Part shown: positions 20,803-28,603 of the stretch, piece by piece
Position numbering within the stretch: the stretch's first letter is position 1
Layout of the letters: each line of letters opens with the position of its first letter
DNA from: an uncultured Pseudomonadota bacterium
GTDB taxonomy: Bacteria > Myxococcota_A > UBA796 > SXON01
Assembly (NCBI GenBank): GCA_903844155.1
Contig: CAIMSU010000349.1
Coordinates: 1-42,585 of the forward strand
DNA: 42,585 bases
Direction: 5' to 3'
Position numbers and translations under genes: made by a program
Notes under the pieces: model-generated
Seen by the model: the letters and a program-made list of their open reading frames with translations, nothing else
Databases searched by the model: none
What the model was told of the DNA's origin: nothing

Positions 20803-21975
20803 TTAGAAAACGGCGATTTCGCCTGGGATTGCGAGCGACACGGTCACGCCGAGTGGGGCGACGGCGGCGGCAGGGCGCAAGGGGTGGTACCAGACGCCGA
20901 AGGTGAGCTGGTTGAATCCGATCCGGGCCACGATGGCCGGGTCGAGGACCCCGGAGGCCCACGCGCCGGTCGGGGCACCGGAGCCGTCCAGCGTCAACGC
21001 CGGGCCGATCTCGGCCGTTCCCGTCAGCCCCCCCCAGCCCAGACGTTGCCGGAAGGTCACATCCAGGATGCCGTGCGCCGCCCACGCCTGCCCGGGCGCG
21101 AGGCCGATCGCCCCGTCCACAACGAGGCGATCGCGCACCGCGAGCGAGAGGTCGGCACCGCCCCAGGTCGTTTCGTCTGCGGAGAGGACGAGGCCGGAGT
21201 CGACGGTGCCGCCGAGGCGGGGGCCGACCGGATGGGGCCCCGATTGGTTTCCACAGGGCTCAGGAACCACGAGGACGGCCACCCCGTCCCGGTCCATCGC
21301 GTAGGGGGGCAAGCACTCCATCGCCGCGCGCATCGCGTTCACCCGCCCCACCAGCGCCTCCACGTTCGCGGTCGGGCTCACAAACGCCAGGTTGTCCGCC
21401 CGCAGCTTTCGCGACACCACCCCGACCAGCCCCCCGTCCCCGTCGATCAGGGGCCCGCCCGAATTCCCGGGGTTCAGCGCCGCATCCGTCTGGACAAGGT
21501 GCCCACCGACTCCCGAAACGACCCCGTGCGTGACGCTCCACTCCAACAGGCCCGACATCTTGCCGCCCGCCTCCAGTCCAAACGGGTGGCCCAGCCCCCA
21601 GACCTCCTCGCCCTGCGCGACCGCCTCCGTCCGCAGCGAAAGTGTTGGATAGTCGCCCTCAAAGCCAACCTTCTCGACCACCTCGATCAGCGCGAGGTCG
21701 TCGTCTGGCGAGCGCGCAATCACCCGCCCCACGCCCGTCTTCCCGTCGCGCCAGCGCAGATGCGGTCGTCCGCCGCCCGCCACGCAATGGTAGGCCGTCA
21801 CGATCAACTCCCGCTTGAACTGGGCGACGTAGGCTGCCGCGTAGGGCCCCGTCGCCGCCCTGTCCGCCTCCGTCGCTTCCGCCGCCACGATCCCGGCGCC
21901 CGCGCAGTACGCCTCCCCCGTCTCCACGACCACGACGGCGTCCAGCGCCCTCTGCAACGTCGATGGGTCCGTCAC
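20803..21975 (-). CDS. Trypsin-like serine protease with C-terminal beta domain
   Basis: 390 aa from a GTG at 21975 that overlaps the acyltransferase stop by 4 bp. The first 210 residues are a trypsin-fold protease with the full triad: His63 (TAYHC), Asp93 (DDDLALIEV) and Ser172 (NPGNSGGPL), plus the HPFG and QTDAALNPG motifs seen in HtrA/DegP-type proteases. No PDZ domain follows. Instead residues about 255-390 form a strand-rich region (SGLVLSADETTW, AHGILDVTFRQRLGW, RIGFNQLTFGVWYHP) ending in ...IPGEIAVF; a terminal Phe is a hallmark of outer-membrane barrels. No signal peptide precedes the protease part, which makes the location uncertain. Further upstream the frame is only shadow of the acyltransferase gene. 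Confidence 0.85.
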   Translation of the reverse strand: MTDPSTLQRALDAVVVVETGEAYCAGAGIVAAEATEADRAATGPYAAAYVAQFKRELIVTAYHCVAGGGRPHLRWRDGKTGVGRVIARSPDDDLALIEVVEKVGFEGDYPTLSLRTEAVAQGEEVWGLGHPFGLEAGGKMSGLLEWSVTHGVVSGVGGHLVQTDAALNPGNSGGPLIDGDGGLVGVVSRKLRADNLAFVSPTANVEALVGRVNAMRAAMECLPPYAMDRDGVAVLVVPEPCGNQSGPHPVGPRLGGTVDSGLVLSADETTWGGADLSLAVRDRLVVDGAIGLAPGQAWAAHGILDVTFRQRLGWGGLTGTAEIGPALTLDGSGAPTGAWASGVLDPAIVARIGFNQLTFGVWYHPLRPAAAVAPLGVTVSLAIPGEIAVF

Positions 21976-22889
21976 CGCCGACGGCTCTGGATGACGCGCC
22001 CGATCCGGCGAGCGCCTGCCCCCACGCGCGTCCGAAACGGCGCGAGCGAGGCCTTCATCCCGTCCAATTGCGTCTGGATCGCGGCCTGCACGGCGGCGTC
22101 GACATCCTCGACGCTCCCGGTCGGCTGGATGGCGGCGCCGATGTGGTAGCGGAGCGTGACCGGCAGCGGGACGTGGGGCATCGGGCCGACGCCCAACCCC
22201 CACGGCACCGAGAGATGGACCGGGAAGATCTCCGCCCGGAACGCCCGGGGTAGCCCCATCGCACGCGCAAACATCGCGCCGTCCGAGACCACGTAGAAGC
22301 TGTGCTGCGCGCCAACGTGCGCGACGGGGACGATCGGCACGCCCGCCTCCAGCGCCAACCGCGCATAGCCCTTCCGACCGGCGAAGTGCACCTTGAACTG
22401 GTCTGCCGTCCGACGCCACGTGTCCCGGTCACCCCCCGGCGCAACGAACAAGTCTCGGCGTAGATCCTGAAGGACGTGCCGGCCGCGCTCCCGCCCGGCT
22501 CGCAGCACGCCGAGCTCCCCGAAGAACCGCGCGATCGGCGGCAACGAGAACACCATGTCGTGCCCCAGCGCGTGCACGGTGCGGTCCACGCCAAAACGCC
22601 GGATCCAGGCGATCATCAGCCCCCAGACATCCGGGATCGTCGTGCCACCGGAGTGGTTGGAGACGAGGAGGACGGGTGGCGGAGGGAGGTTCTCCCAGCC
22701 GGTGACCTCCAGCCCGAACCAGCCGTCGTCGCCAAAAAGCCGGCCGACACGCTCCGCAATCTCGACCACCCGCTCGGGCCGCACGTGGGCGGGATCGAGG
22801 CCCCAGGGCGCGTTCACCCGCGACCAGTACCCGCGGTCCTTCTCGACCGGCGGCGGGCGGTCGCCAGCGTCCCCGTGGTCGCCCGTCAA
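21972..22889 (-). CDS. Lysophospholipid acyltransferase-like protein
   Basis: 305 aa PlsC-like acyltransferase. The core has VLLVSNHSGGTTIPD with the likely catalytic His79; the following acidic residue (Asp87) is eight positions on, wider than the usual HX4D spacing but similar to the NHSGG subgroup related to MGAT-like enzymes. The second motif FVAPGGDRDTWR corresponds to the PEGTR/PGG block, and GVPIVPVAHVGAQ is the third block. It would transfer an acyl chain to a lysolipid, glycerolipid or similar acceptor at the inner membrane; the acceptor is unknown. The gene overlaps both neighbours by 4 bp, so it is translated in one chain with the KptA-like/Nudix gene before it and the protease after it. 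Confidence 0.88.
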   Translation of the reverse strand: MTGDHGDAGDRPPPVEKDRGYWSRVNAPWGLDPAHVRPERVVEIAERVGRLFGDDGWFGLEVTGWENLPPPPVLLVSNHSGGTTIPDVWGLMIAWIRRFGVDRTVHALGHDMVFSLPPIARFFGELGVLRAGRERGRHVLQDLRRDLFVAPGGDRDTWRRTADQFKVHFAGRKGYARLALEAGVPIVPVAHVGAQHSFYVVSDGAMFARAMGLPRAFRAEIFPVHLSVPWGLGVGPMPHVPLPVTLRYHIGAAIQPTGSVEDVDAAVQAAIQTQLDGMKASLAPFRTRVGAGARRIGRVIQSRRR

Positions 22890-23917
22890 CCCGTCTCCCG
22901 ATACCGCAGCGCTTCGTCAGGAACGTCAAAGCCAAGCTCCAACGCCCGGTCGGCGACGGCGTCCAGCAGCCGGCCGATGCTCATCCGCAGGCTCGGGTGC
23001 GCGAGCGCGTCCAGCGCGTCCTCCAGCGAAAACCACGCTACCATCTCGATCCCCTCGCCCGACGCGGGCCGGAACGGCGCGACATCGGCCCCAAGCTCAA
23101 GCAGGTAGAGGTGGATGGTCTTCAGCCGGGGCGACCCATCCGGGGTGGAGAACCCGTACCGCACCGTCCCGAGCGAGCGACGCACGTGCACCTCCGGCAC
23201 GCCCATCTCCTCCTGCACCTCGCGAACCGCCGTTCGTTCCGGAGTTTCTCCCGCCTCGATCTTGCCTTTTGCCACCTCCCACGTCGCCCCGTGCCTGCGG
23301 ACGACCCGGATCAAGGCGATCCTCGGCCTCGAACCTTCCCAGTCCACGACAAAGCCGCCGGCGCTGGCCTGCTCCGCAAACCCCTCGCGCAAGTTCAGCA
23401 CATAGCGCAACGGCAGGTCCTCCGCCGTATACTGGCCGGTCCGCGTGACGTTCAGCGCCACGCCATCCCGTCGGGCTCGGCCTGCGTCGACGAACAGCAC
23501 CACGGGGTCCTCCCACATCCGGTGGCCATGGTGCCACGCCTGCGACTCGCGGCAGAACAGGGGGAGCGGCGCTCCCGACCGACCACGCACCGCCCCATCC
23601 TGGACATACTCGGCGACCATCGCCGCGTTTGCCCCAACGTAGAGCAGATCGGGCCCGGTCGGCGGCGGTGCGCCGTCGTGCAAGCTCACCTGGATGCGCC
23701 CAGCCTGCACCGCGAACCGGTTGCCGCCGTAGGCCCGCACGGCCTCCATCACGTCGTGCGGTGAGACCGGGCGACGGATGGCGCGGCTCAGTGCGCGCGC
23801 GACCTCCTCGAGCGGAAAGGAGCCGCCGGGCAGCTCACCGAGCCCCACACCCGATGCGCCGTGGCGCAGGAGCCACGTGAGCGTGCGGGAGAGCCGGTAG
23901 GAGTCGATGGCGGGCAC
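22886..23917 (-). CDS. Divergent Tpt1/KptA-like domain fused to a Nudix hydrolase
   Basis: 343 aa. Residues 1-180 follow the layout of Tpt1/KptA RNA 2'-phosphotransferases: SRTLTWLLRHGASGVGL (Arg18-His19), GNRFAV (Arg67) for the winged part, then DLLYVGANAAMVAEYVQDGAV, PVVLFVDAGRARRDG and LPLRYVLNLREG for the NAD-binding part. Two usual landmarks are altered: the LYHGT motif reads LYVGA and the HVHLS motif seems to read LPLFC, so activity may differ. Residues 188-340 are a Nudix domain with a perfect box (Gly218 to Val240, GKIEAGETPERTAVREVQEE). Tpt1 uses NAD+ to take a 2'-phosphate from RNA and releases an ADP-ribose cyclic phosphate; Nudix enzymes often cut ADP-ribose or NAD, so a coupled reaction is conceivable. 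It overlaps the acyltransferase gene by 4 bp. Confidence 0.85.
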   Translation of the reverse strand: MPAIDSYRLSRTLTWLLRHGASGVGLGELPGGSFPLEEVARALSRAIRRPVSPHDVMEAVRAYGGNRFAVQAGRIQVSLHDGAPPPTGPDLLYVGANAAMVAEYVQDGAVRGRSGAPLPLFCRESQAWHHGHRMWEDPVVLFVDAGRARRDGVALNVTRTGQYTAEDLPLRYVLNLREGFAEQASAGGFVVDWEGSRPRIALIRVVRRHGATWEVAKGKIEAGETPERTAVREVQEEMGVPEVHVRRSLGTVRYGFSTPDGSPRLKTIHLYLLELGADVAPFRPASGEGIEMVAWFSLEDALDALAHPSLRMSIGRLLDAVADRALELGFDVPDEALRYRETG

Positions 23918-23945: not shown

Positions 23946-25445
23946 CTACCGGACGAGCTTCTTCCACCACCCGTCCTTCTCGTCGCCGTAATATTTGAGG
24001 AGGAGGTTCCGGAAGCGCTCTTCCTTCCTCATCTTCTCGAAGGCGGGGTCGATGCGGATGTCCTGCCGGTACTCGATGTTGTGGAGCGTGTCCAGCTTGC
24101 GCATCCCACGCAGCGACTTCTCCAGGTAGGAGTATGCCTTTTCATCCTTGCCCCAGGCGGCGTACAGCTTGGCGCGGTGCAGGTCCGCGTAGGCGTCCCC
24201 CGGGATGATGGTCTCGAGCTGCTTCATGATCTGCTCGGACTCCTCAAACCGCCCCTGGTGCGCCAGGCAAACGGCGAGGTTGTTCAGCGCGTGGTCGTCC
24301 ATCGGTGCCAATTGCAGGGCGATCCTGTAGTATTTCTCCTCGGTGACGTAGTCCTTGCGGCGCTTGAAGGTGAGCGCGAGGTTGTTCCAGCCGGTCGGAT
24401 CATCAGGGTAGAGCACGGTCATCCGCGTGTAGACCTTCTCGGCCTGCGTGTAGTCCATCGCGAGGTACTCGTAGTACGCCAGGATGTTCATGCCATCCGG
24501 ATCATCCGGGTTCAACTTCAGGATCTGCTGGGCGACGTCCAACTGTCGCTGGATCTCCCGCGCGTCGTCCCGTGCGTCTGCCGTGTCGTACCAGTCGTTG
24601 AGCCCCCAACCCTCTGTGACGTGCACAGCGACTGGCTGATCCTCGTCCTTCGCCTTCTCGGGGTCGGGCGCGGCGTCGACGACGGTGCCGTCGTCCGGGA
24701 CGGGCGCGGGGACGTCGGGGCCGGGGTCCTGGTCGCCCGCCCCTACAACAGCGGGCTTGGCGTGCCGAGGCGGGGGATCGGGGTTGCCCGAGGCGATGTG
24801 GTCGCCGACGTTCTTGCCGCCGCCAATCGTCGTGACCGGGCCGCCGTGACCGGCCTGCAGGTAGTAGCTGGTGATGGGGTCTGCGTTCGTCGGCCTCGGC
24901 GCCTCCTTTTTGGCGATGAACCCCTTGTCGGCACCGCCATAGTCGCCGCGGAGCAGACGCTGGAGATACTCGGGCGACGGCTCCGGCGCGGACACCGACG
25001 CGCCCGCGCCAGAGAAGAACAGGCTGAGGAGCGAGATCTGCAGCCCGATGACCGTGAACGAGAGCCCGAGGACCGGCAGCAGCGCGTCGGCCTGCTCACC
25101 GATCCAGCGAGGAAGGCGGAAACGACGCACGATCTGCGCCGAGATCTCCACGCCCTGCTCGTCCAAGGAGACGCGGCGCTCGCGCCCGACGACTACCTGC
25201 TGGGTGGGGGTGGTGAGCACGTAGCCCGCGCCGCCGTCCGACTGGTACGCCAACCGGAACGGGAGGCCGGGGACCTCCCCTTCTCCCTCGACCCAGAACT
25301 GCAGCGGTCGCCCGCCAACGCGCACGAGGACGCCCAACCGCGGAAGACCCGCAGCCGCCTGGATCATCGGCGTTTCATCGCGCCAGGGCAACCCCAAGCC
25401 TGGACCGGCAGGGGGCGTCGGACGGGGGCGTGCAGGTTCGCTCAC
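23946..25445 (-). CDS. TPR membrane protein
   Basis: About 499 aa from the GTG at 25445 (VSEPARP); a TTG 45 bp upstream would overlap the divergent CinA-like gene and is less likely. The order is a Pro-rich start, a beta-rich region (about 35-115: LGVLVRVGGRPLQFWVEGEG, YVLTTPTQQVVVGRERRVSLDEQGVEI), one membrane segment (LLPVLGLSFTVIGLQISLLSLFF), a long Pro/Asp-rich linker, and at least four TPR units (LNPDDPDGMNILAYYEYL, YPDDPTGWNNLALTFKRRKDY, LAPMDDHALNNLAVCLAHQGRF, AYADLHRAKLYAAWGKDEKAY). TPRs point to a protein-protein scaffold, probably in the periplasm. Its start lies 38 bp from the divergent CinA-like start, and it heads a minus-strand run of four genes. Specific function unknown. Confidence 0.78.
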   Translation of the reverse strand: MSEPARPRPTPPAGPGLGLPWRDETPMIQAAAGLPRLGVLVRVGGRPLQFWVEGEGEVPGLPFRLAYQSDGGAGYVLTTPTQQVVVGRERRVSLDEQGVEISAQIVRRFRLPRWIGEQADALLPVLGLSFTVIGLQISLLSLFFSGAGASVSAPEPSPEYLQRLLRGDYGGADKGFIAKKEAPRPTNADPITSYYLQAGHGGPVTTIGGGKNVGDHIASGNPDPPPRHAKPAVVGAGDQDPGPDVPAPVPDDGTVVDAAPDPEKAKDEDQPVAVHVTEGWGLNDWYDTADARDDAREIQRQLDVAQQILKLNPDDPDGMNILAYYEYLAMDYTQAEKVYTRMTVLYPDDPTGWNNLALTFKRRKDYVTEEKYYRIALQLAPMDDHALNNLAVCLAHQGRFEESEQIMKQLETIIPGDAYADLHRAKLYAAWGKDEKAYSYLEKSLRGMRKLDTLHNIEYRQDIRIDPAFEKMRKEERFRNLLLKYYGDEKDGWWKKLVR

Positions 25446-25483
25446 CGCATCATCATAGCCACCCGGCCGGTTAGCTCCAACCG

Positions 25484-26194
25484 ATGGCAACCGCCGCGAT
25501 CGTCATCATCGGCAACGAGATCCTGAGCGGCAAGTTCGTGGACGAAAACGGGCCCTTCCTGATCCGACGCCTGCGCGAGCTTGGCTGTGACCTTGGGCGG
25601 CTCGTGGTGATCCCGGACGTGCCGGAGGTCATCGCCGCGGAGGTCCGGGCGTGCAGCGCGGCGTTCGACCACGTCTTCACGACGGGCGGGGTCGGGCCGA
25701 CGCATGACGACCTCACCCTGCCGTCGATCGCCGCAGCCTTCGGCGTGGCAGTCGAGCGGCACCCGGCGCTGGAGGCGATCCTTAGAAAGCGCATGGGAGA
25801 CGCCTGCAACGACGCGGCGTTGCGGATGGCGGAGATCCCGGTCGGCGCCGAGCTCTGGTGGGACGGCGAGGTGCGGTATCCGCTCGTGACGATGAAAAAT
25901 GTCGCGATCTTCCCCGGGGTCCCGGCGCTGCTGCGTCTGAAGTTCGAGGCGGTCGCCCATCGTTTTGCGGGCGTCCCAGTTCGGACGGAGCGGCTCTGGA
26001 CGGAAAGGACGGAGCCAGAGATCGCAGGCGCGCTCACCGAAGCCGCGTCGGCCTGGCCGAGCGTGGCGATCGGGAGCTACCCGCGCTTCGAGTTGCAACC
26101 GCCAAAGGTGCTGGTCACGCTGGAGGGCAGGCACGAGGCGGAGCTGGAGGCGTGCGTGGCCTTCGTCGCTGCCGCCATCGCCCCCTCCGCCTGA
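25484..26194 (+). CDS. CinA-like molybdopterin-binding domain protein
   Basis: 236 aa, consisting only of the N-terminal MoCF domain of CinA; the C-terminal nicotinamide-nucleotide amidase domain of full-length CinA (about 400 aa in all) is absent. Typical motifs are IIGNEILSGKFVDENGPFL, FTTGGVGPTHDD and the PGVPALL segment. In full CinA this domain is linked to ADP-ribose pyrophosphatase activity in NAD salvage; members with only this domain are often left as competence/damage-inducible protein A. It is divergent from the TPR/KptA-like/Nudix operon, which also suggests NAD or ADP-ribose chemistry, although no direct link can be shown. Confidence 0.9.
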   Translation: MATAAIVIIGNEILSGKFVDENGPFLIRRLRELGCDLGRLVVIPDVPEVIAAEVRACSAAFDHVFTTGGVGPTHDDLTLPSIAAAFGVAVERHPALEAILRKRMGDACNDAALRMAEIPVGAELWWDGEVRYPLVTMKNVAIFPGVPALLRLKFEAVAHRFAGVPVRTERLWTERTEPEIAGALTEAASAWPSVAIGSYPRFELQPPKVLVTLEGRHEAELEACVAFVAAAIAPSA

Positions 26195-26205
26195 CCCGAA
26201 AATGT

Positions 26206-26263
26206 ATCAAAACCGACGATGTCGCTTTTCGCATGTGCGAAAAGCGACGTCGTCACTTTTGAT
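26206..26263. terminator. 58-nt near-perfect palindrome, probable bidirectional terminator
   Basis: The arms start and end with ATCAAAA/TTTTGAT and meet around CTTTTCGCA/TGCGAAAAG at 26234. Over 29 positions per arm only a two-base mismatch and wobble pairs interrupt the stem. It lies between the convergent CinA-like gene (ends 26194) and mutY (ends 26253), and the mutY stop codon is inside the right arm. A- and T-runs at both ends fit termination on both strands, although the stem is much longer than usual. Confidence 0.75.
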
Positions 26264-27293
26264 ATGCCGGGCTGTGGTGGGCGAGGGCTTTGCGCGCGAG
26301 GGTGGAGAGCGGTGGGTGCGTGGCCGGTGAGGTGACGGGGAACCAGTCCGCAGCGATGTAGGAGCCGGTGGTGAGGACAGGTGCGGGCAGCGTGACGTCC
26401 TCGGCGACAACGCCGCTGGCGACAGACAAATCGCGAACGTCGACTTCCAGCCGGCGGTGGCTGAAGACGTGCACGAACGATCCGACGGTGCGCCCACCCG
26501 TGAGCCAGTCCGCCGTCGTCGGCGGCTCCCACAGGCCCCCAAGCAGACCAGCAGGGCGTTGCGCGAGCCAGACGTGCCCGTCCACGACCCGGAGCAGCGC
26601 CGTCGCCCGCACGACCGGACTGGGCTTCTTCGCCAACTTCACCGGATACTGCTCCGGACTGGCGCGTCCCGCGCAAGCCGTGGCGATCGGGCACGCGTCG
26701 CACGCAGGCGCCCTCGGCGTACAGAGGAGCGCACCGATCTCCATCAGGCCCTGGTTGTAGTCGCCAGCGGAACCCGGCTCCGCATGCACCGCCGCCCACA
26801 TCCCGCGCTCGGCCTCAGCCCAGGTCGCCTTTCGCAGCGCCGTTCCCGACGCAGTCAGCGCCAGAACCCGCGCCAGCACGCGCTCGACGTTGCCGTCCAC
26901 AAGCGCGGCGTCCAGCCCCAGCGCCGTCGACGCTATTGCTCCCGCGGTGTAGGCCCCGACTCCAGGCAACTCCAACAAACCAGCCAGCGAGCTTGGAAAT
27001 CCGCCGGCGTCGGCAACAACCCCCGCGGCGCGGTGGAGGTTCCGGGCCCGGCTGTAGTACCCGAGACCCGCCCAGAGGCCGAGGACCTGCTGCTCCTCCG
27101 CTCGTGCCAGCGCCTCGACCGTCGGAAACGCCGCCATGAACCTTTCGAAGTAAGGAAGCACCGTCACAATCTGGGTCTGCTGGCACATCAGCTCGCTCAC
27201 GAGGGTGCGGTACGGGCTGACCTCCCGTCGCCACGGCAGATCCCGCCGGTTCGCCCGGTACCATTCGACGATCGCGGCGGGGTTGAGGCTCAC
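26253..27293 (-). CDS. mutY: A/G-specific adenine DNA glycosylase
   Basis: Base-excision repair enzyme that removes adenine mispaired with 8-oxoguanine, 346 aa. It starts at a GTG (27293) overlapping the upstream stop by 4 bp. The catalytic domain has Glu34 in SELMCQQTQI, the helix-hairpin-helix LPGVGAYTAGAI with the VDGNVERV segment (Asp133), and the 4Fe-4S cluster Cys191-x6-Cys198-x2-Cys201-x5-Cys207. The C-terminal Nudix-like 8-oxoguanine-reading domain (about 225-346) has WEPPTTADWL and the FSH motif in VHVFSHRRL. All key residues are present. It is the last gene of the M16 peptidase operon, an unusual setting, and its stop codon lies in a large palindrome. Confidence 0.97.
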   Translation of the reverse strand: MSLNPAAIVEWYRANRRDLPWRREVSPYRTLVSELMCQQTQIVTVLPYFERFMAAFPTVEALARAEEQQVLGLWAGLGYYSRARNLHRAAGVVADAGGFPSSLAGLLELPGVGAYTAGAIASTALGLDAALVDGNVERVLARVLALTASGTALRKATWAEAERGMWAAVHAEPGSAGDYNQGLMEIGALLCTPRAPACDACPIATACAGRASPEQYPVKLAKKPSPVVRATALLRVVDGHVWLAQRPAGLLGGLWEPPTTADWLTGGRTVGSFVHVFSHRRLEVDVRDLSVASGVVAEDVTLPAPVLTTGSYIAADWFPVTSPATHPPLSTLARKALAHHSPAYQK

Positions 27294-28603
27294 CGCGCGG
27301 CCGGCGGCTGGCTGTAGAACTCCGGGTAGACCGGGTGCGCGCGCACGCCCCATGCCCAGCCGGTGAGCCAGATTGCGGCGAACGCGATCAAAGCCCGCCT
27401 CGAAAGCAGGAAGCTGCCGAGGACCTCCGCGGCGCCGGTCACCATGAGGAGCCAGGGGACGTAGAAGAAGGTCTCGGGCTTGGCGACGCGCCAGAACCCC
27501 GGTACGAGGTCGAAAAGCGCCATGTAGACCGGGTTGTGGGCGGGTCCCAGCGCCACGACGATCGCCACCGCGCAGCCCGCAATTGTGAGCAGCGAACGTC
27601 GCCAGATCAGCTCGCCGTACACCCACACGCCCGCAAGCGCGAGGACACAAGGGTTCATCGCCCGCCACCCCTCAAGCCGGTTCCAGGTCCACGGCACCAC
27701 CGAGACCACGTCCAGGCAGGCCCGCTCCGTGAGAAATTGCTCCGGCGAACCTGGGGCATGCGCTCCTCGCATCAATACCCCCTGCCAGACCACGAACGGC
27801 AGCATCCCCAACGCCGTCGCCGCGATGAGCTGGATCCGTGGGGTCAATTCGACCCTTCGCCCGCTCACAACTGCGACGAACGCCATCCACGCCCCCATCG
27901 CCGCAATGAGGATGCCCATGTACACGTTGAGGAACATCGCGAGGGCGCCAACCCCCGCGCACGCCCAGGCCCTGCCACCCGCAACGCACGAAAGCCACAG
28001 CGGAAGGACGAAAATCGCCGTCTTCTCAACCGTGTACCAGTTGATGTCCCGGAACTGGTGCAGGTTGAGAGCGAAGGGGATCCCCAGGAGGACGGCGACG
28101 GCCAGTGACCCGGTGGAAAGCCCATTTTTGGCCCGGATCCGTCCCAGCAGCCACGCCCCCGTACACCACCACGCGAGCCACAGGTTCAGAAAGCTCTCGG
28201 CGTTGAACCCCGCCCAATCCGGAAGCAGCAGTGCGAAGGCCTGTACCACCCAAAGATGCCCGAGGTGAACGCCGATGAGTTGAACGCCGGGGTTGGTGGG
28301 GTCGAGCAGGTGCCAGTGCACGCCCTCGCGGTAGAAATGCAGCGAGCCTGCCTTGTCGATCGTCGGAAAACTGCCGAGGATCGCGACCGGGATCATGCCG
28401 AACATCGGCGCCGTCAGCCCCGCCGTGGCGCCCAGCGTCAGGAGGCCGAGGCCAACCCGGGGTCGCCAGCCAGACCCGGCGCGCAGCAGGTAAACCCCAA
28501 GGAAGAAGGCGGTGAGTCCGAGGAGGATGGAGCCGACCCACGCGCCGAGCGGGGCCTCCACGAGGTGCTGGGACGGGTCCGGAGGCGGGCCGTACACGGT
28601 CAC
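27290..28603 (-). CDS. Polytopic membrane protein, possibly glycosyltransferase-like
   Basis: 437 aa from a GTG at 28603 overlapping the upstream stop by 4 bp. About ten hydrophobic segments are visible (WVGSILLGLTAFFLGVYLL, VGLGLLTLGATAGLTAPMFG, GLSTGSLAVAVLLGIPFAL, WACAGVGALAMFLNVYMG, LLTIAGCAVAIVVALGP, ALIAFAAIWLTGWAWGV and others). Soluble loops include SLHFYREGVHWHLLDPTNPGV and a loop before TM pairs with NLHQFRDINWYTVEKT. The topology resembles polyprenyl-sugar-dependent transferases and YfhO-like proteins, but no catalytic motif was recognised, so the function is left open. It ends 4 bp into mutY. Confidence 0.75.
   Translation of the reverse strand: MTVYGPPPDPSQHLVEAPLGAWVGSILLGLTAFFLGVYLLRAGSGWRPRVGLGLLTLGATAGLTAPMFGMIPVAILGSFPTIDKAGSLHFYREGVHWHLLDPTNPGVQLIGVHLGHLWVVQAFALLLPDWAGFNAESFLNLWLAWWCTGAWLLGRIRAKNGLSTGSLAVAVLLGIPFALNLHQFRDINWYTVEKTAIFVLPLWLSCVAGGRAWACAGVGALAMFLNVYMGILIAAMGAWMAFVAVVSGRRVELTPRIQLIAATALGMLPFVVWQGVLMRGAHAPGSPEQFLTERACLDVVSVVPWTWNRLEGWRAMNPCVLALAGVWVYGELIWRRSLLTIAGCAVAIVVALGPAHNPVYMALFDLVPGFWRVAKPETFFYVPWLLMVTGAAEVLGSFLLSRRALIAFAAIWLTGWAWGVRAHPVYPEFYSQPPAAR

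Follow-up and report, generated by a model that had tools for sequence, protein, structure and literature searches.

A Tpt1/KptA-like domain fused to a Nudix hydrolase is inherited across a bacterial order while its catalytic residues erode

Tpt1/KptA proteins are RNA 2'-phosphotransferases that use nicotinamide adenine dinucleotide (NAD+). Their Arg-His-Arg-Arg catalytic tetrad is essential, and what they do in bacteria, where tRNA splicing of the fungal type is lacking, has yet to be established (PMC6333775). KptA and TRPT1 can also cap 5'-phosphate RNA with ADP-ribose, a signal that is removed by NUDT16 (PMC6582358). Escherichia coli RppH and ApaH cleave ApnA nucleotides and also decap NpnN-RNA (PMC7044304). 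A fusion of KptA with a Nudix domain has been described in the Bodo saltans virus, where the Nudix part was suggested to process an ADP-ribose derivative (PMC9503650), so the domain pair itself is not new. We found no report of a bacterial KptA-Nudix fusion in the literature searched. In this work we describe such a fused gene on contig CAIMSU010000349.1 of an uncultured bacterium placed in Myxococcota_A, the whole 42,585-nucleotide stretch of which is called the window below. By the description in that paper, the viral protein carries the same domain pair on one chain; unlike it, the gene reported here is cellular and retained across an order. By sequence comparison, both halves are homologous to the named families, the fusion has been inherited vertically order-wide, the Nudix site is intact and the Tpt1 half has eroded repeatedly.

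The initial annotation of the window had proposed a divergent Tpt1/KptA-like half joined to a Nudix half, in an open reading frame whose limits and length were exact; its strand is given in Table 1. Both Pfam profiles scored over their cut-offs on the window copy, PTS_2-RNA (PF01885) at residues 7-161 with 26.7 bits against 26 (E 6.7e-6) and NUDIX (PF00293) at residues 188-307 with 63.7 bits against 21.1. Taken by itself the window copy only just qualifies as a Tpt1, and the identity of this half was therefore decided through its relatives. An orthologue (L105, genome G056) reached 95.9-97.9 bits with PF01885, and a profile of 42 orthologues matched the Clostridium thermocellum enzyme CthTpt1 (6e3a) with an E-value of 7.5e-26 over residues 1-174, as well as the diadenosine tetraphosphate (Ap4A) hydrolase of Aquifex (3i7u) with an E-value of 1.1e-14. 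As in CthTpt1 and ApeTpt1 (1wfx), the RNA and NAD+ lobes are colinear. Unlike these enzymes, the proteins stay far under the cut-offs of the NCBIfam RNA 2'-phosphotransferase equivalog (35.1 vs 231 bits for the window copy, 112.8 vs 239 bits for L105). Chance or a frame artefact was ruled out by the orthologues, the selection described below and the profile E-values.

A survey across genomes, which had been proposed as a check, found the fusion in 58 of the 63 genomes of the window's order, single-copy at E 1e-12, and in none of the eight genomes from the remainder of the class. The orthologues of the four other species of the window's genus are 74-80% identical. With the Nudix half as sole query against 237 genomes of the phylum, all 40 matches below 1e-14 were these fused genes, and this search returned no stand-alone form of the family's Nudix half in the order. 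Other Tpt1 matches in the phylum were not of the fused kind; four genomes of the order additionally carry a separate canonical Tpt1. The absence from the five fusion-negative genomes of the order was not accepted as real loss, since at least two of them have a contig end directly beside the usual neighbouring gene, C1 (see below). In a tree of the NAD lobe and the Nudix part, the families f1 (to which the window's genus belongs), f2 and f3 each form one group, which favours vertical descent; the sequences thus speak for vertical inheritance of the fusion across the order. A phage or plasmid origin was rejected, as tblastn found no relative in viral_contigs and the plasmids held no relative covering 80%. 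The fusion is also contained in three metagenome-assembled genome records, L098, L099 and L130 (CALQBK020000049.1, CAMAWH010000006.1 and CAMCWU010000090.1), which match genomes of the same order; their titles, Bifidobacterium breve and Klebsiella pneumoniae, look mislabelled.

The residues of the Tpt1 half were compared with the contacts of CthTpt1 (PMC6333775). As first annotated, the window copy keeps Arg18-His19 and Arg67, while LYHGT and HVHLS are altered, reading LYVGA and PLPLF. The catalytic tetrad is incomplete: no arginine stands at or beside the position of CthTpt1 R121, the fourth member (GAPLPL in the window copy), and this arginine is absent in 18 of the 19 f1 copies. The HGT motif, which binds the adenosine ribose of NAD+, is VGA, so that both side chains are lost. 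Mutation of the corresponding His and Thr in the Runella Tpt1 (H99A-T101A) left 4% of the product and was lethal in yeast (PMC6333775). Judging from these mutants of another enzyme, the window copy, in which neither HGT side chain nor the fourth arginine remains, probably does not work as a 2'-phosphotransferase. Other departures from Tpt1 extend over the family: K66 and Y80 are lost, R140 is lost almost everywhere, the GHS motif is found in 0 of 42 copies and the position of L134 is taken by an invariant Trp (window Trp128; 42/42). The equivalent of R139, window Arg133, is likewise invariant (42/42), and His94 and Glu124 are near-invariant among the orthologues at former pocket or near-pocket positions.

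The relatives show mostly erosion and not a new catalytic set, which does not bear out the proposal that the altered motifs could mean a new NAD-dependent reaction. HAT is retained in f3 and f4 and HGT in f5; H101 is present in all copies except f2 and the window copy (Val94), and T103 is retained all through f3-f5 and seldom in other families. An arginine (R-x-V) lies one residue nearer than the R121 position in f3-f6, where its equivalence is uncertain. Family f3, in which R18, H19, R68, H101, T103 and R139 all remain, may possibly have an active Tpt1 half. It is there that the two halves could act in sequence, as the initial annotation had suggested, with the Tpt1 half making an ADP-ribose product and the Nudix half cleaving it. 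The 97.9 bits of L105 with PF01885, the halves that never come apart in the order and the like role proposed for the Bodo saltans virus protein (PMC9503650) also favour such a clean-up. The window copy, deprived of the tetrad arginine and of both HGT side chains, fits it poorly; moreover three families have lost the whole RNA lobe and kept the Nudix domain, four genomes of the order have their separate canonical Tpt1, and the Nudix half is closest to Ap4A hydrolases in a genome that holds a separate ADP-sugar type Nudix gene. We therefore consider sequential action of the halves unlikely.

The three families without an RNA lobe are f4-f6, in which the Nudix half is intact. In place of the missing lobe, 21-65 residues precede the NAD lobe, of which 15-44% are Lys or Arg, the start codons of these copies having been picked by eye. 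A single loss of the lobe is not enough in 99% of the bootstrap trees, although it would be compatible with the starred branches alone. Going by the sequences, the RNA lobe was probably lost twice. These losses also bear on a reversible modification of RNA ends, in which the ADP-ribosyltransferase (ART) half would ADP-ribosylate 5'-phosphate RNA and the Nudix half would trim or remove the ADP-ribose cap. The capping by KptA/TRPT1 and the removal by NUDT16 (PMC6582358) offer a precedent, and the pocket residues Arg133 and His94 are mostly retained in the family. However, a writer and an eraser on one chain would idle, f1 and f2 lack catalytic residues and f4-f6 lack the RNA lobe, which makes this possibility very improbable.

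The mean identity between genera is 29% for the RNA lobe, 44% for the NAD lobe and 53% for the Nudix part, and is highest at the junction (Table 1). Within the genus, the mean rate of nonsynonymous substitution (dN) is approximately 0.25 in the RNA lobe, 0.28 in the NAD lobe and 0.13 in the Nudix domain, with a synonymous rate (dS) of 1.0-1.2 overall and 1.1-1.2 in the two Tpt1 lobes; as dN is well under dS, both Tpt1 lobes are under purifying selection.

Beyond the order, the nearest matches in a pattern-limited scan were Nudix proteins of Longimonas, Salinivenus and a Bacteroidetes bin. Such a Nudix protein occurs in 98 of 100 genomes of the Longimonas class, and in about 45 of these 98 Rhodothermota genomes (hand count from the match table) it has an extra N-terminal domain of approximately 80 residues (proteins L132, L133, L134 and L213-L237). 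The profile of this domain aligned with the NAD lobe of the fusion family with an hhalign score of 41.1 over 93.5% of its length, and with canonical Tpt1 NAD lobes with a score of 30.2 over 75%; the highest score from 100 column shuffles each was 15.5, and that from unrelated profile windows 16.1. It contains neither HGT nor the arginine, and was not recognised by Pfam in the two proteins tested. From these profile alignments it looks like the same NAD lobe, stripped further. Motif-less remnants of this kind, the stepwise disappearance of motifs and of a whole lobe, and a junction that is the best conserved stretch are what one would expect if the Tpt1 half were inert and did no more than stabilise the Nudix domain or form a dimer interface. 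An inert scaffold need not, however, keep an invariant Arg133 and Trp128 and a near-invariant His94 and Glu124 at pocket sites, and we regard this explanation as improbable.

The Nudix box, perfect in the window copy as first annotated, is intact in 42/42 and 36/36 orthologues, two sets that overlap. By fold and profile, the Nudix half appears to belong to the Ap4A-hydrolase class. Its top fold match was 3i7u (Z 19.6, root-mean-square deviation (rmsd) 1.5 Å over 134 residues), followed by MutT1/Rv2985 (9cxx) and then by the Ap6A hydrolase Ndx1 of Thermus (1vc8); 3i7u was the closest solved Nudix protein by profile, Foldseek and fold alignment. The Nudix half shares with these ApnA-type enzymes the Nudix box and the fold (Z 17.7-19.6, rmsd 1.5-2.2 Å), and differs from them by an identity of 26-31%, by the N-terminal Tpt1 module and by never standing alone in the order. 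Six Nudix genes scored over the cut-off in the window's genome, the fused gene included. By profiles that all remained below their equivalog cut-offs, two of the other five look like MutT, one like an ADP-sugar/NudE enzyme and one like a CoA pyrophosphatase, and the fifth has no assigned type; none of the five gave an Ap4A-hydrolase-like or RppH-like profile. ApaH was over the cut-off in no genome of the order, with weak fragments only. The ADP-ribose pyrophosphatase class is reportedly marked by a proline 15-16 residues past the Nudix box (Dunn et al. 1999); in an alignment read by eye these positions are Gly255 and Phe256 in the window copy, with no proline. Considering the Ap4A-like fold, the types of the other Nudix genes, the lack of ApaH and the decapping by RppH and ApaH, an ApnN-type nucleotide or an RNA cap is the most likely substrate.

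Structure prediction, also proposed as a check, recovered the Tpt1 fold. The AlphaFold2 model of the fused protein had a mean predicted local distance difference test (pLDDT) score of 90.7 and a predicted template modelling (pTM) score of 0.72. Foldseek matched it to the Ap4A hydrolase (5.8e-11) and to Tpt1 chains (~1e-9, probability 1.00, approximately 175 columns). The two-lobe Tpt1 fold was matched with an rmsd to Tpt1 of approximately 14 Å, which indicates that the model arranges the lobes in another way than Tpt1 does; with a pTM of 0.72, this arrangement may reflect an error of the prediction. Tpt1 chains were missing from the VIA-align list, which Nudix chains filled, and this is no argument against Tpt1.

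The explanation that we prefer, while holding it at somewhat less than even confidence, is that the protein acts as a Nudix pyrophosphohydrolase on ApnN-type nucleotides or on the capped ends of RNA, with the Tpt1-derived lobe serving substrate recognition. A captured Tpt1/KptA would have become the N-terminal module of this enzyme, with the Nudix half as the working part, which would cleave a pyrophosphate either of an ApnN-type nucleotide or of an RNA 5' end bearing NpnN or a triphosphate. The Tpt1-derived half of the window copy would have lost 2'-phosphate removal; its former NAD pocket, around Arg133 and Trp128, may bind the substrate by its nucleotide or RNA portion and present it to the Nudix site. 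In copies without the RNA lobe, RNA may instead be contacted by the short tail, which is often rich in arginine. If this recognition model holds, the protein would resemble the decapping Nudix enzymes RppH and Dcp2 in combining a Nudix domain with an RNA-binding element; unlike them, it gives a weaker profile and fold match, and no Dcp2 accessory domains were seen. We also propose, still more tentatively, that a Tpt1-type NAD+ lobe turned into a non-catalytic lobe reading nucleotides or RNA, with the whole Tpt1, the NAD lobe only and the motif-less Rhodothermota remnant as its stages.

Several observations weigh against a Nudix enzyme with a recognition lobe. The Tpt1 half may be active in f3, given the residues kept there, and purifying selection continues to act on the RNA lobe, as would not be required of a part that is just carried along. 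The basicity of the replacement tails varies (15-44%), and the former NAD pocket would have to face the Nudix site. Enzymes acting on 8-oxo-dGTP or diphosphoinositol polyphosphate and decapping enzymes were close runners-up by profile and fold, and Nudix specificity is not reliably readable from the fold. The survey of Ap4A degraders, finally, covered Nudix and ApaH genes, among families that also include HIT and YqeK.

Table 1. Positions of the fused gene, its parts and its neighbours in the window
Feature	Position	Strand	Remarks
Whole fused gene	22886..23917	minus	343 aa, GTG start
Tpt1 RNA lobe, residues 1-85	23663..23917	minus	winged-helix type in Tpt1; lobe boundary after PMC6333775
Arg18-His19 (RNA lobe)	23861-23866	minus	present
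Arg67 (RNA lobe)	23717-23719	minus	present
Tpt1 NAD+ lobe (ART fold), residues 86-174	23396..23662	minus	
Val94, in VGA at the HGT position	23636-23638	minus	
Trp128 (NAD+ lobe)	23534-23536	minus	invariant, 42 orthologues
Arg133 (CthTpt1 Arg139)	23519-23521	minus	invariant, 42 orthologues
Junction, residues 175-187	23357..23395	minus	highest conservation; mean identity 68% between genera
Nudix domain, residues 188-312	22982..23356	minus	apparent Ap4A-hydrolase class
Nudix box, residues 218-240, GKIEAGETPERTAVREVQEEMGV	23198..23266	minus	matches G-x5-E-x7-RE-U-x-EE-x-G perfectly
Downstream PlsC-like acyltransferase	21972..22889	minus	4-base overlap with the fused gene end; outside the system
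Upstream TPR protein	23946..25490	minus	outside the system
Divergent CinA/MoCF gene	25484-26194	plus	PF00994, 94 bits

The TPR, PlsC-like and CinA/MoCF neighbours are conserved in the window's genus only. The divergent CinA-like gene pointed out in the initial annotation is present, but it was rejected as a functional partner because its adjacency is not kept beyond the genus. At 26253-27668 on the minus strand, a MutY-like glycosylase (PF00730) carries a NUDIX_4 domain (PF14815) at its C-terminus, an ordinary second Nudix-type domain nearby. In most families the fusion is adjoined by the orphan gene C1. It lies upstream in f4, in f6 and, outside the window's genus, in f1, whereas most of f3 has it downstream; in the window's genome C1 is on another contig (G000:C224:66032-67033). 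Its product of approximately 340 aa has many invariant Gly and Trp (e.g. L119:7005-8066, plus 25 others aligned). No notable Pfam, NCBIfam or PDB sequence match was found for C1, and its model (pLDDT 94) gave a best Foldseek E-value of 0.38 and middling Z scores to Rossmann folds of the flavin adenine dinucleotide (FAD) type. Neither sequence nor structure searches yielded a function, and C1 was set aside as a clue to that of the fusion.

What appears to be new is the order-wide fixation of the fusion in a cellular lineage, the graded loss of Tpt1 features and the Rhodothermota remnant. Here a lineage has tied Tpt1 to Nudix in nearly every species, with the catalytic parts wearing away stepwise. 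The natural variants, with a whole Tpt1, the NAD lobe only or a remnant, make the Tpt1 fold as a substrate reader testable. Should the Nudix half decap RNA, the reader of the RNA or cap would be an unusual one for a decapping enzyme. The finding suggests that an old NAD-using enzyme has been converted into a helper domain for another enzyme.
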